Shown piece by piece: positions 55,495 through 60,526 of a stretch of 64,000 nt of DNA. The position numbers and the translations under genes were made by a program. Location of the stretch: positions 1-64,000 of the forward strand of contig JANYGC010000005.1 in the NCBI GenBank assembly GCA_025359425.1, written 5' to 3'. This DNA comes from Sphingomonadaceae bacterium (GTDB lineage Bacteria > Pseudomonadota > Alphaproteobacteria > Sphingomonadales > Sphingomonadaceae). The notes beneath the pieces were generated by a model. It saw only the letters and a program-made list of their open reading frames with translations. It was not told the origin of the DNA and did not search any database. The number at the start of each line of letters is the position of its first letter. Within the stretch, counting starts at the first letter, position 1.

Positions 55495-57284
55495 CGCCGC
55501 GCCACCGTCGAGCGGAACTCCTGGTAGAGTTTGAGCATCGGCGGGTGCGACACATCGAACGGCGGCGGCATCTGGCTGCGGATTTCGATCCGGTCGGAGT
55601 CCTCGCTGATCTGAGTGTAATGCAGCGTGCCCGCCGCTTCATCGTACCAATGGAAGAAATACAGGTTGGTCCCCGGATTGCGGGTCAGCGCATTCTGGTC
55701 AAGCACGAGGGGTGACAGGTTGATGTAGCTGGTGACGTCGTCGAGGTCCTTGAGCAGAATCACCGATTCGTTGTCGGCATAATGCAGCAGCGCCTGGGTA
55801 TCGTCTTTGTAGAGCGCAGCGGCAGCGCGATCGAGCACCACGCGGCGATGCAGGAACGATGCGTCCTTGCGCCGCGTCCGATTGATCGTGATCTCCTTGA
55901 TCGTCGCGAGTTTGTATCCGGCGACAAAGGTCATCAAGTAAAGCGCATTATCGAGGTGGGTGTCGGCCTGCTGCGCCAGATCGGCAGCTTTGGCTGGATC
56001 GACGCTGCGATCGAAGATGGCACCGCGCATCGTGTTCATGAAACTTTGCGCTGCCGCGCAAGCGGGCTGCGCCATCGCCGCTGCCAGCTCGTCGCACTGG
56101 CTCATGTAAGCCGGTATTCCATTGGCCGCGAGTGCCGCGTTCAGCTGGATCGCGAAATCGAGAAAATCGAACCGCGCCGACCCCGCCTCATCCAGCTGGT
56201 TGAACGCCTCTATCGCCACCCACTGCGCATCGCTCAGCGTCACCGCGCCGGGCTTGTCCTCGAACAAGTCCCACAACTGCGCGAGCAGCGCGAAGGCCAC
56301 AAAGCGCGTGGTAATGTCATAAGTCGCGACCGCCAGCCGCAGCCGCGGATCGCCCATTTGTCCGCCCGCGAACAGAATCCGCAGTTTTTCCCCGATAGGC
56401 GATGGAAACGCGTTGATGATCCCCTCGCGGACCAGCCGCTCGTCGACGGTGCCGTCGCGGCTGAGCTTTCGCTCCAATTCCATCCGCTCGCGAAAACCGG
56501 CATCGAGCTCGCCCACCGCCGCAGCCTGCCGCGCGATCAGCCCGTCGCTGGGGCTGGCGATTTGCGTGGCGGTAACCGGCGCACTGGCCTCGATCACGAA
56601 ATTGGCGGCGCGGTGATCGGGCAGGGTCCAGGCCAGCGCGGCCTCCTTGCCCTGGACCGCGTAAAGCCCCCACTTGGCCGCGCCGATCAACGGCGGGGCA
56701 TCGCTGCCCGCGCGCATGCCGCGGCTCTCGATTTCGATCGCGCTGCCCTTGGCCGTGGCGACCAGCGCCTTGGCGCGGGCGAAGGCGAAATCGATCGTCC
56801 GGCTCGCTCCGGGATCGGCCAGCGCGGTGTAGAATTCGCGGGCGAATTGGAGCGCGATATCATCCTCGACCGGGGCCGCAGTGGCGATCACCGCCGGCAC
56901 GCCCTGGGCGAGCAGCTGCTCGACGTGCCCTTGGGTGGCGCAGCCGTTGAGGAACACCAGCTTCAGATTGGGCAGCGTACCGAGCAGCTGCGCCAGACCC
57001 TCGCCATGCGCGGCGGCATTGCCGCCCCCTGCAGCCTGCAAATCGAGCACCGAACCGTCGGCATGGCCGCCGTAATGCAGCACCGCCAGATCATCGCCGT
57101 AGTTGCCGATCAGATCGAACAGCCGCGCGATGTCGGCCGCGGTCTGGGTCTTGAACTTGATGATCCCGGCGTCGTCTTTCTTTTGCAGCGCGTCGCTGAT
57201 CGCGTCGCATTCCCGCTGCAAGCCGTCGAGAAACCGGCCCTGGTCATTGGCGAACGCCGCCAGAATGACCGGCGCTCCGGCCAT
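55491..57284 (-). CDS. CHAT-domain (caspase-like) protein
   Basis: DDLAVLHYGGHADGSVLDL and LKLVFLNGCATQGHVEQLLAQGVPAVIATAAPVEDDIALQFAREFYTAL; candidate His/Cys dyad. Confidence 0.88.
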   Translation of the reverse strand: MAGAPVILAAFANDQGRFLDGLQRECDAISDALQKKDDAGIIKFKTQTAADIARLFDLIGNYGDDLAVLHYGGHADGSVLDLQAAGGGNAAAHGEGLAQLLGTLPNLKLVFLNGCATQGHVEQLLAQGVPAVIATAAPVEDDIALQFAREFYTALADPGASRTIDFAFARAKALVATAKGSAIEIESRGMRAGSDAPPLIGAAKWGLYAVQGKEAALAWTLPDHRAANFVIEASAPVTATQIASPSDGLIARQAAAVGELDAGFRERMELERKLSRDGTVDERLVREGIINAFPSPIGEKLRILFAGGQMGDPRLRLAVATYDITTRFVAFALLAQLWDLFEDKPGAVTLSDAQWVAIEAFNQLDEAGSARFDFLDFAIQLNAALAANGIPAYMSQCDELAAAMAQPACAAAQSFMNTMRGAIFDRSVDPAKAADLAQQADTHLDNALYLMTFVAGYKLATIKEITINRTRRKDASFLHRRVVLDRAAAALYKDDTQALLHYADNESVILLKDLDDVTSYINLSPLVLDQNALTRNPGTNLYFFHWYDEAAGTLHYTQISEDSDRIEIRSQMPPPFDVSHPPMLKLYQEFRSTVARR

Positions 57285-60200
57285 CAGTGCCAGGCCACGG
57301 TGTTGAGCGCCGCCTGCCCGGCAGGGCTCGAGAAGTAGTTGAGGTGGTGGCACGCGACATTGCTGCGTGCCGCCGGATGATCGCCCAGCACGTCGTCGAG
57401 CAGGATCGAATGGGTCTTGACCGCGATGTCGTTGGCGGCGGAATCGAACAGCCTGTCCAGCGGAGCCGAGCGGGTGATGCGGGTCATCAGCGCGTCGAAA
57501 AACGCCTGGTCGGGCGCTTGGTAGTCGGCGATGTTGCCGGCGAGGATGGTGTAGCGTGTCGCCGTTGGCGCGCTGCCGTTGAGCGCCGTGATGAATTCCG
57601 AGCCCGGCGCCATCTGCTCAAGCGTCCTGGTCAATGCGGCCGAGGCGCTGATCACCCCCGCCGCGCTGGCGCAGACCGGCAGCAATCCGCAATTGGCCCC
57701 CACCGCCATCAACGCGAGCAGCACCTTGCGCGCCTTGCCGATCTCGCCGAACGGCGATCCGGCGTTGGGGGTGCCGCACATCACCAGATGGTCCACCACG
57801 GTGCTGCCGCCTTCCTTCTCGATCAGCCAGCGCGAGACCAGCCCGCCCATCGAATGTGCCAGCACGGTGACGTCCTTGCCGTCGTCCGCGCCGATCCCGA
57901 CCTTGGCCAGATCGGCCTTAAGGGCGCGCGCGGTCTGGTCGATCGGGGTCGACAGGTTCTCGTAATCGTAGGCCAGCACGCAATCGAAACCCTGGTCGAG
58001 CCCGCAGGCATGCAAGCCTTCGAGCATACCCCGCGTGTCGCCAATGATCCCGTGGATCACCACCAGCACGCGGGTGGCGGCCTTGACCGCGCCGATCAGC
58101 CCGTCAGTCGAGTATCTGGCCTGGCCGGCCACATCGAAGCTCGCCAGCCGCAACCGGTTGACGTGATCGATCCCGATCGACTTGAAGAAATACATCCGCA
58201 GCGACCCGCCCAGGCTGCGCTGGTCGGCCAGCGGCGCGGGGACGTGGCTGACTTCAACGTGAGTCGAACCGTCAGCGTCCCGCCAGAAATCGCCCGCCGG
58301 CATCAGGTATGGCCCGTCCTGAACCAGCGGCATCAGCACTTCGCCCGCCGCCAGTTTCAGGTCGAGCCTGATTTTGAGCGGATTGTCGGTCAGTTTGGCT
58401 GGATCGGAGATGTCGGTGATGTCGAGCGCCACCGGGCCATCGCCGCGCTGCCCCGCCACGCCTGCGGGGACAATCCCTGCTGCGGCGAGCGCACCGACGA
58501 AATGATCGTCCGCGCCGATCCCGCGCGACGCCCCGAGCGAGGTTACCAGCGCAAGGTTGGCGGTGACCGAGGGATGGCCGCCAATCGTGATCTGGCCTTG
58601 CGACAGCTGCGCCGGTGCAGCCCCGACCGCAGCCAGCCGCTTGGTGACGCGCACGGTCAGATCGAGCGTGAACCAGTCGTCCGTGACCACCTTGGGGGCC
58701 GCCTTGCGCGAGCCCATCCCGCGGTCCGAATTGAGCCCGTCCATCTCGAGCAGGAAAGTGTCGATCGGCTCGGTCGTCAGCACCAGCTTGAGTTGCTCGA
58801 CCGCTGCATCGCCCTCGTCGATATAGAAATCCACTGCGGTATCCGGGCCGCCCCCGGTATCGACCATCAGCGTCATGTAACCATCAACCGATGGCACCTG
58901 ATCGTGCGCTACGACCTTGATCGAATAGTGGCTCTTCTGCTCAAAGTCGTAGGTTATGAAGCGGATCAGCGCGAAATTGAGCGGCATGCCGGTGCGGTTG
59001 CGCAGCCGCAGTTCGCCGCTGACGCCGCATTGGCCATCTGCATCCACAGCAGCATCAAAGGTCAGCGCAGGGCCCGGCAGCAGACGCCCGGAACCGTCCG
59101 CGTCCTTGAGCGCATAGACGAAATCGACCTTGCCGGGATCGAGCTGCGGTTGCGGATTCGACAGCGCCAGCAAGCGCCGCCAGCCCGCGACATGGGACAC
59201 TGTTTCGACCAGTCGGCGCGGCCACGAACCCGCATCAGACTGATTGATAGTGGCAAAATTAACCCCGTCATCGCGCCGGGTCAGGGTCAGCGAGCCGCCG
59301 CCGGCGGTCAACGCGAAGCCGTCGTCTTCGTCCTCCGCGCTGACCAGCTGGGCGATCATCCCGCCATCGTCGTCGAATGCCTTTTGCACTGCAGCCCGTT
59401 CGGCCGCGTCACCGTCGAAGCGCAGCCGCAGCGGCGCTTCGGGCAGCGAGGTCAGCGTGGCGAGATAGCGCTGCGCCGGATCGGCCGCGAAATCGGGCAG
59501 GATATCGCTTTTGGTCCCGCCCACCCGGGTGACCTGCGCGGTGCCGACGGGTTTGTCGGGATTGGCCTCGAGCGCGAGCGACAGTGTGGCCGGTTTGTCC
59601 GGACGCACCGGCAGCCCGGCAATTGCGCCTGCCGCCACGCTCCACTGCTCGCCGAGACTGCTCACGACATAGGTCTTGCGCCCGATCCTGCGCGCGCGGC
59701 CGAGGAACCCCTGCCAGCCATCGAACCCGCCGATTGCCTCGAACTGCGGGCGCTGCGGCGTCTTGTTGGCGCGGGCGATGTACTGGGCGACCCGGGTCCG
59801 AGCGCGAGGAAACAGTTCGGCGTAGGACAGATCGCCATTGGTCTCGCGCAGCACCTGATACAACGATTCGGTGAAGATCCCGCAGCGGTTGTCGAGGTCT
59901 TCTTTCGACGTCTCGTCGCGGTCGCAGCCGGCCAGCAGCATGTGGCGGGCGTGCGGCACCTGAATGTCGCCGGCTTTGAGCATGCCGGCGTATTGCCCCT
60001 CGAGGTAGGCTTCGAGCTTGCGCGGGAAATTGCCGTCTGTCGTTCCGCGGATCCCGGCCCGGCTGGTCCCTTCCAGATCGCGGGTGCCACTGCCCGAATG
60101 GCAGCAATCGAACACCCAGGCGATGTGCGGGTCGTTCTTTGCCAGTTCCGCCAGCAGCAGCGCCAGCTCCTTGTCGGCAAGGTCGAAGTTGTCGCCGACC

Positions 60201-60526
60201 CGGCTGTCGTAACAGACCAGCCCCTGATCGCGCCCGCCCAGGTCGAACCGGGCGAATTCCGGCGCAGCGGTCGAGCGCGCGCCGTGGCCGCTGTAGTGCA
60301 GGTAGGCGACATCGTCCTGACCCGCTTGCCCCAGATGTTTGCGCACCTGGGCAATGACATTCGCATAAGTCGCGTCGGCATCGTTCAGCGTGACGATCGC
60401 CGGGTCGGTGCAGTGGGTTTTGAGAAAGTCCGCGACGTTGGCAGTATCGGCAAGGCACCCTTCGAGCGGCTCCGTGCCAGCCGGATAGCTGTCTATCCCG
60501 ATCAGCAGCGCATAGACTCTACCCAT
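57284..60526 (-). CDS. Caspase (peptidase C14) - alpha/beta-hydrolase (lipase-like) fusion, 1080 aa
   Basis: MGRVYALLIGIDSYPAGTEPLEGCLADTANVADFL...VAYLHYSGHGARS...IAWVFDCCHSGSGTRDL; C-terminal VLVVIHGIIGDTRGM...VTVLAHSMGGLVSRWLIEKEGG. Confidence 0.92.
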   Translation of the reverse strand: MGRVYALLIGIDSYPAGTEPLEGCLADTANVADFLKTHCTDPAIVTLNDADATYANVIAQVRKHLGQAGQDDVAYLHYSGHGARSTAAPEFARFDLGGRDQGLVCYDSRVGDNFDLADKELALLLAELAKNDPHIAWVFDCCHSGSGTRDLEGTSRAGIRGTTDGNFPRKLEAYLEGQYAGMLKAGDIQVPHARHMLLAGCDRDETSKEDLDNRCGIFTESLYQVLRETNGDLSYAELFPRARTRVAQYIARANKTPQRPQFEAIGGFDGWQGFLGRARRIGRKTYVVSSLGEQWSVAAGAIAGLPVRPDKPATLSLALEANPDKPVGTAQVTRVGGTKSDILPDFAADPAQRYLATLTSLPEAPLRLRFDGDAAERAAVQKAFDDDGGMIAQLVSAEDEDDGFALTAGGGSLTLTRRDDGVNFATINQSDAGSWPRRLVETVSHVAGWRRLLALSNPQPQLDPGKVDFVYALKDADGSGRLLPGPALTFDAAVDADGQCGVSGELRLRNRTGMPLNFALIRFITYDFEQKSHYSIKVVAHDQVPSVDGYMTLMVDTGGGPDTAVDFYIDEGDAAVEQLKLVLTTEPIDTFLLEMDGLNSDRGMGSRKAAPKVVTDDWFTLDLTVRVTKRLAAVGAAPAQLSQGQITIGGHPSVTANLALVTSLGASRGIGADDHFVGALAAAGIVPAGVAGQRGDGPVALDITDISDPAKLTDNPLKIRLDLKLAAGEVLMPLVQDGPYLMPAGDFWRDADGSTHVEVSHVPAPLADQRSLGGSLRMYFFKSIGIDHVNRLRLASFDVAGQARYSTDGLIGAVKAATRVLVVIHGIIGDTRGMLEGLHACGLDQGFDCVLAYDYENLSTPIDQTARALKADLAKVGIGADDGKDVTVLAHSMGGLVSRWLIEKEGGSTVVDHLVMCGTPNAGSPFGEIGKARKVLLALMAVGANCGLLPVCASAAGVISASAALTRTLEQMAPGSEFITALNGSAPTATRYTILAGNIADYQAPDQAFFDALMTRITRSAPLDRLFDSAANDIAVKTHSILLDDVLGDHPAARSNVACHHLNYFSSPAGQAALNTVAWH

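Follow-up and report, generated by a model that had tools for sequence, protein, structure and literature searches.

A caspase paired with an alpha/beta hydrolase is already known from the VMAP systems, in which the caspases always have an alpha/beta-hydrolase gene adjacent (Kaur et al., 2020, PMC7159879). The SAVED-CHAT system of type III CRISPR runs a proteolytic cascade that is initiated by a CHAT protease (PMC11229360), and in Canu a caspase complex activates a pro-nuclease (PMC12799240). Type IV Thoeris (Rousset, 2025), as described in PMC12847820, uses a TIR-derived signal to activate a caspase-like protease. Fungal NLRs with a SesB-like lipase couple an alpha/beta-hydrolase effector to a STAND NTPase (PMC4986451), and LypABC of Caulobacter is an alphaproteobacterial three-gene protease-NTPase system for lysis (PMC13236601).

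The locus described here lies in a 64,000-nucleotide stretch of DNA from a Sphingomonadaceae bacterium (the window), where a gene for a single-chain caspase-lipase is the first of a coupled CHAT-STAND operon (Table 1). Like VMAP (vWA-MoxR)/GAP1-N1, it combines a caspase-superfamily peptidase with an alpha/beta hydrolase in what would be an NTPase-regulated conflict locus. The VMAP hydrolase, however, is encoded separately, next to the caspase, and the partners there are MoxR and vWA, whereas here both enzymes occupy one chain and the partners are CHAT and nSTAND1 proteins. Pfam finds no MoxR ATPase, vWA or VMAP gene among the seven proteins encoded at 49-61 kb, and we rejected VMAP membership because these required genes are absent from the scanned locus. 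Since VMAP makes the pairing of caspase and alpha/beta hydrolase known, it is the single-chain CHAT-STAND form that is new, as far as the openly accessible literature goes.

SAVED-CHAT has a CHAT protease, which here too is expected to act upstream in the cascade, but it also has SAVED; none was found here, and the presumed trigger is the STAND NTPase. Membership was rejected given that Pfam reports CHAT only and that the PADLOC SAVED_CHAT match is weak and confined to residues 145-182. In Canu, as proposed here, a bacterial caspase controls an effector enzyme, and in both the caspase is followed by a beta-rich region (Ig-like in Canu), but the Canu effector is a separate MBL-type nuclease, while here the hydrolase is fused in cis; the operon and its Pfam-scanned neighbours hold no MBL-type nuclease gene, and this assignment was likewise dropped. 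Type IV Thoeris resembles the locus in having a TIR gene beside a caspase effector, but here the TIR gene is convergent and outside the operon, the effector carries a hydrolase, and CHAT and STAND proteins are present. With the adjacent TIR gene on the opposite strand and only marginal similarity to ThsB, we did not assign the locus to that type. The lipase of the fungal NLRs is the NLR's own N-terminal effector, and the account of them includes neither a caspase-lipase chain nor a CHAT partner, whereas LypABC uses a trypsin-like protease with a CARD-like domain, its paper making no mention of a hydrolase, lipase or CHAT. Finally, the EACC1-caspase family was rejected on its profile score (NF047832, 40.1 bits against a cut-off of 140).

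Table 1. Genes, domains and key residues of the locus, in coordinates of the window.
Feature	Position	Strand	Remarks
TIR (PF13676) - TolB-like - TPR protein, 643 aa	51235..53166	+	WVHDE motif
Small ORF, 57 aa	53203..53376	+	DRG repeats; convergent with the STAND gene
nSTAND1 NTPase, 688 aa	53428..55494	-	Pfam; one transmembrane helix at about 436-454
CHAT-domain protein, 597 aa	55491..57284	-	Pfam; helical C-terminus, uncharacterised
Caspase-lipase, 1080 aa	57284..60526	-	C14 peptidase, beta-rich linker and DUF7379 alpha/beta hydrolase
Peptidase_C14 domain, residues 4-264	59735..60517	-	Pfam; dyad H81 and C142
H81, caspase dyad His	60286-60284	-	codon
C142, caspase dyad Cys	60103-60101	-	codon
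Linker, residues 265-810	58097..59734	-	predicted beta-rich; low-confidence model
R602-G603, conserved	58723-58718	-	codons; low-confidence loop
DUF7379 alpha/beta-hydrolase domain, residues about 811-1080	57287..58096	-	Pfam and invariant S892/D1033/H1061
S892, hydrolase nucleophile	57853-57851	-	codon
D1033, likely hydrolase acid	57430-57428	-	codon; in NDIAV
H1061, likely hydrolase catalytic His	57346-57344	-	codon; in ACHHLNYF

The caspase-lipase chain

A preliminary description, drawn from the sequence alone, had placed the gene at 57284-60526, and it was recovered exactly so; it encodes 1080 residues and begins with ATG, with a purine-rich sequence 5' of the ATG. Pfam recognizes Peptidase_C14 (PF00656, E 3e-21, 76.5 bits against a cut-off of 21.4) and, from residue 821, DUF7379 (PF24096, E 6e-14, 52.8 bits against a cut-off of 33). 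The motifs that had been picked out as C14 signatures, HYSGHGA (H81) and WVFDCCHSG (C142), both fall inside the first match, and AHSMGG, proposed to hold a serine nucleophile, places S892 within the second; because they lie in domains that exceed the Pfam cut-offs, none of the three is a chance motif. The separation of about 600 residues between caspase and nucleophile given in the same description was too small, the actual spacing from Cys to Ser being about 750 residues. The caspase-lipase is the sole C14 match in its own genome, and sequence matches to the PDB identify metacaspases as the closest solved relatives of its caspase domain. The hydrolase additionally yields weak Pfam profile matches to PGAP1 and palmitoyl-thioesterase, and a literature search for DUF7379 by name returned no paper.

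An alignment of ten full-length sequences, comprising six from alphaproteobacteria including that of the window and plasmid-encoded single-chain relatives from Rhizobium, Deinococcus, Anabaena and Nostoc (29-33% identity), reveals that H81, D140, C142, S892, D1033 and H1061 are invariant across several phyla. One alphaproteobacterial protein (L034) reads DCCNSG, with Asn replacing the His that follows the Cys, which leaves the catalytic pair unaffected. D27 (in GCxxD) and D140 (in DxC) align with their metacaspase equivalents, and the two may serve as the acidic residues of an S1 pocket with Arg/Lys specificity. The proposal of a catalytic His near the C-terminus points to H1061 rather than H1060: the former never varies, and the latter becomes Asp in distant relatives, so H1061 is the likely catalytic residue. 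When the window is compared with four more distant loci, the two enzyme domains are 57-60% and 54-55% identical versus 33-43% for the linker, and against the closest relative (L032) they give dN/dS values of 0.16 and 0.19, a sign of purifying selection. That the enzyme domains are the most conserved parts and have low dN/dS values argues, if short of proof of activity, that both enzymes are in use.

AlphaFold models of the caspase-lipase and the CHAT protein were built from six-sequence alignments and reached mean pLDDT values of 54.5 and 58.4. In the final 60 hydrolase residues and across the greater part of the caspase domain, pLDDT is 24-46, too low at both active sites for judging catalytic geometry, the check that the preliminary description had called for. 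Residues 785-1080 of the hydrolase model match many lipases and esterases (VIA-align Z 12-14), and for the CHAT model the match is 8tl0, the protease filament of SAVED-CHAT. Pfam domains, fold matches and the conservation of both catalytic sets in the ten sequences thus bear out the central claim of the preliminary description, that a protease and an alpha/beta hydrolase are joined in a single chain.

The linker had been put at about 400 residues without an assignment. It is longer (about 545 residues), but it does lack a convincing match: its profile matched nothing in the PDB, and the comparison with Pfam gave nothing convincing and no known signal-binding domain. The AlphaFold prediction, of modest confidence here, is mostly beta-strand. 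Foldseek matches to transglutaminases, complement and C5a peptidase were discarded, their rmsd being above 15 A, and hint at most at a beta-sandwich-like look. The N-terminal part of the linker is common to caspases without a hydrolase at loci from Saprospiraceae, Nostoc and Embleya (L037, L044-L046). Conserved basic residues (R602, R668, R694 and R770) occur in predicted loops of low confidence and are no more than candidates for cleavage by a protease specific for Arg/Lys; because all four qualify, we picked no single self-cleavage site.

Operon partners and distribution

The stop codon of the caspase-lipase has one base in common with the CHAT start codon (TGATG), and an ATGA overlap links the end of the CHAT gene to the start of the STAND gene. 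The CHAT domain scores 45.7 bits in Pfam against a cut-off of 24 (PF12770), and its dyad, H74 and C115, is invariant in all six alphaproteobacterial loci. Elsewhere in the same genome, a second CHAT-domain match lies on another contig (L047, G000:C107:16914-17615). The nSTAND1 match (PF20703, E 9e-41) is accompanied by the P-loop GQSGTGKTS. The STAND helix is hydrophobic, with a basic stretch just before it, and we infer from this portion of the sequence that the N-terminus would lie inside. Between the window and four distant loci the NTPase part is 57-59% identical versus 17-20% for the part after the helix, and a hypervariable C-terminus on a conserved NTPase is the pattern expected of a sensor. 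Embedding in a CHAT-STAND operon that faces a TIR-TPR gene, a setting absent from the preliminary description, likely shifts the trigger to the partner protease and sensor, rather than leaving it with the fusion alone.

A five-gene arrangement, in which the TIR-TPR gene and the small ORF converge with the operon, is kept in all six alphaproteobacterial loci: the window, a metagenome bin (L032), an Erythrobacter MAG, Allopontixanthobacter and an Erythrobacteraceae MAG (L033-L035), and Pacificimonas (L036). The flanking contexts number three, one shared by the window and L032, one by L033-L035 and one at L036. Our genome searches were samples of the order, class and phylum. Full-length caspase-lipase was found in three of 396 genomes of the order and, among 385 genomes of the class, in the source genome alone, and there was no additional full-length member among 398 genomes of the phylum. 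A scan of viral contigs found no relative.

Outside the alphaproteobacterial loci, CHAT genes adjoin the caspase-hydrolase chain on Rhizobium and Anabaena plasmids. On Nostoc plasmid pNLP1 (L042:3491-12664), a chain of 3057 residues comprises caspase, DUF7379, nSTAND1 and a periplasmic-binding-type domain (Peripla_BP_6), and this fusion independently ties a STAND switch to the caspase-hydrolase. Such partners are not universal, because the annotated flanks of the Deinococcus relative, where annotation is incomplete, hold neither a CHAT nor a STAND gene.

Possible functions of the operon

The domains, the invariant catalytic residues, the conservation of the operon, the Nostoc fusion, the variability of the STAND protein, the patchy distribution and the precedents above together lead us to favour a three-gene self-destruct operon, NLR- or apoptosome-like and of the abortive-infection type, that would probably act against phage; we give this reading about an even chance. 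The membrane-anchored STAND NTPase would use its variable C-terminal region to sense an insult and would oligomerise on NTP, and the assembled STAND protein would then activate the CHAT protease, which in turn may cleave or engage the caspase-lipase. The caspase domain, with a predicted preference for Arg or Lys, would cut its targets and possibly its own linker, and the freed alpha/beta hydrolase would attack lipids or other acyl esters, leaving the cell stopped or killed. By analogy we infer, rather than observe, the sensing, the order of activation, the self-cleavage, the lipid substrate and the defence role of the operon. A membrane-damaging lipase released by proteolysis, as the fusion had originally suggested, is plausible, although the substrates of the hydrolase may be small molecules instead of membranes.

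Release from the chain is one point on which other readings differ. The protease, acting on host or phage proteins, and the hydrolase, acting on lipids, may simply share a scaffold that STAND/CHAT assembly alone activates, a possibility that we take seriously while holding it somewhat doubtful. Such a scaffold would suit the preservation of the full-length chain, long linker included, across large distances, and because the caspase and alpha/beta hydrolase of VMAP are unfused neighbouring genes (PMC7159879), the pair can function without release from a fusion; the conserved basic residues in the low-confidence linker loops, on the other hand, would suit cleavage. It seems rather unlikely to us that all five genes form one system in the manner of Thoeris, with the product of the tail-to-tail TIR-TPR gene generating a signal from NAD to switch on the caspase-lipase or its partners. 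The convergent placement of the TIR-TPR gene and small peptide in six of six loci would fit such a system, as would the invariance of TIR Glu84 (in WVHDE) in all six and the precedent from type IV Thoeris of a TIR signal acting on a caspase-like protease (PMC12847820). Three genomes (G233, G239 and G324; loci L091, L092 and L093) also have TIR-TPR genes no more than about 3 kb away from other caspase genes, which suggests a recurrent TIR-caspase linkage beyond the caspase-lipase operon and makes a functional link an attractive possibility. Against this, the TIR-TPR gene, usually with its small repeat gene, is widespread in the absence of the operon (it occurs in 69 of 396 genomes of the order), it is on the opposite strand and hence not co-transcribed with the operon, the PADLOC similarity of its product to ThsB is marginal (E 0.0045), and the linker offers no known signal-binding domain. 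The repeat peptide and the TIR-TPR gene form a conserved neighbour module that is likely linked to the operon in function.

The locus may also have no part in conflict, and instead serve as a regulator of envelope stress or housekeeping in which the hydrolase is an esterase or thioesterase for small molecules or for lipid groups on proteins. The hydrolase fold matches do span diverse esterases, the weak PGAP1 and palmitoyl-thioesterase matches point the same way, and of the flanking genes in the window that were scanned with Pfam all are of the housekeeping kind, with the TIR gene as the one defence-type exception. We counted this against a defence role, along with the lack of any relative in the viral contigs scanned. 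We nonetheless judge this improbable in view of the patchy distribution, the plasmid relatives, the hypervariable STAND C-terminus and a protease-STAND architecture typical of conflict systems. A further scheme, in our estimate a long shot, is a five-gene immune device in which the STAND sensor and CHAT initiator switch on a caspase that cleaves its own lipase free, while the TIR enzyme and the Arg-Gly repeat peptide, possibly a protease decoy or substrate, set the threshold; this would be a bacterial cascade like that of the inflammasome, with lipid hydrolysis as its final step in place of a gasdermin pore.

If the three-gene self-destruct operon is real, one compact set of bacterial genes would encode a whole pathway, from a sensor of the NLR type through two successive protease steps to an executioner that attacks lipids and is covalently bound to the caspase. 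A lipase would then join the nuclease, the gasdermin pore and general proteolysis as known caspase endings. Because the gene set is fixed, the order of activation is open to direct laboratory test.

Repeat peptides and further caspase neighbours

The small repeat ORF has an equivalent in all five homologous loci. In most of the loci examined across the order (L062-L090), a small gene lies tens of bases 3' of the TIR-TPR gene, and the genes in this position encode repeat peptides (DRG, NDQG, DERTG, DDRTG and similar) or lipoproteins with repeat tails. We accordingly rejected the notion of a repeat peptide exclusive to the operon; the exact DRG form is rare, yet related peptides and lipoproteins trail TIR-TPR genes elsewhere.

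Caspase genes keep other company as well. On the Deinococcus plasmid (L041:2581-7960), two caspase genes, including the one for the caspase-hydrolase chain, are closely preceded on their upstream side by genes for a C1 peptidase and an I42-type protease inhibitor. In a 1312-residue protein of Chitinophaga (L039:9017-12955), an N-acetylmuramoyl-L-alanine amidase domain and a caspase domain share one chain, and some of the caspase genes near TIR-TPR at L091, L092 and L093 look as though their products are exported.
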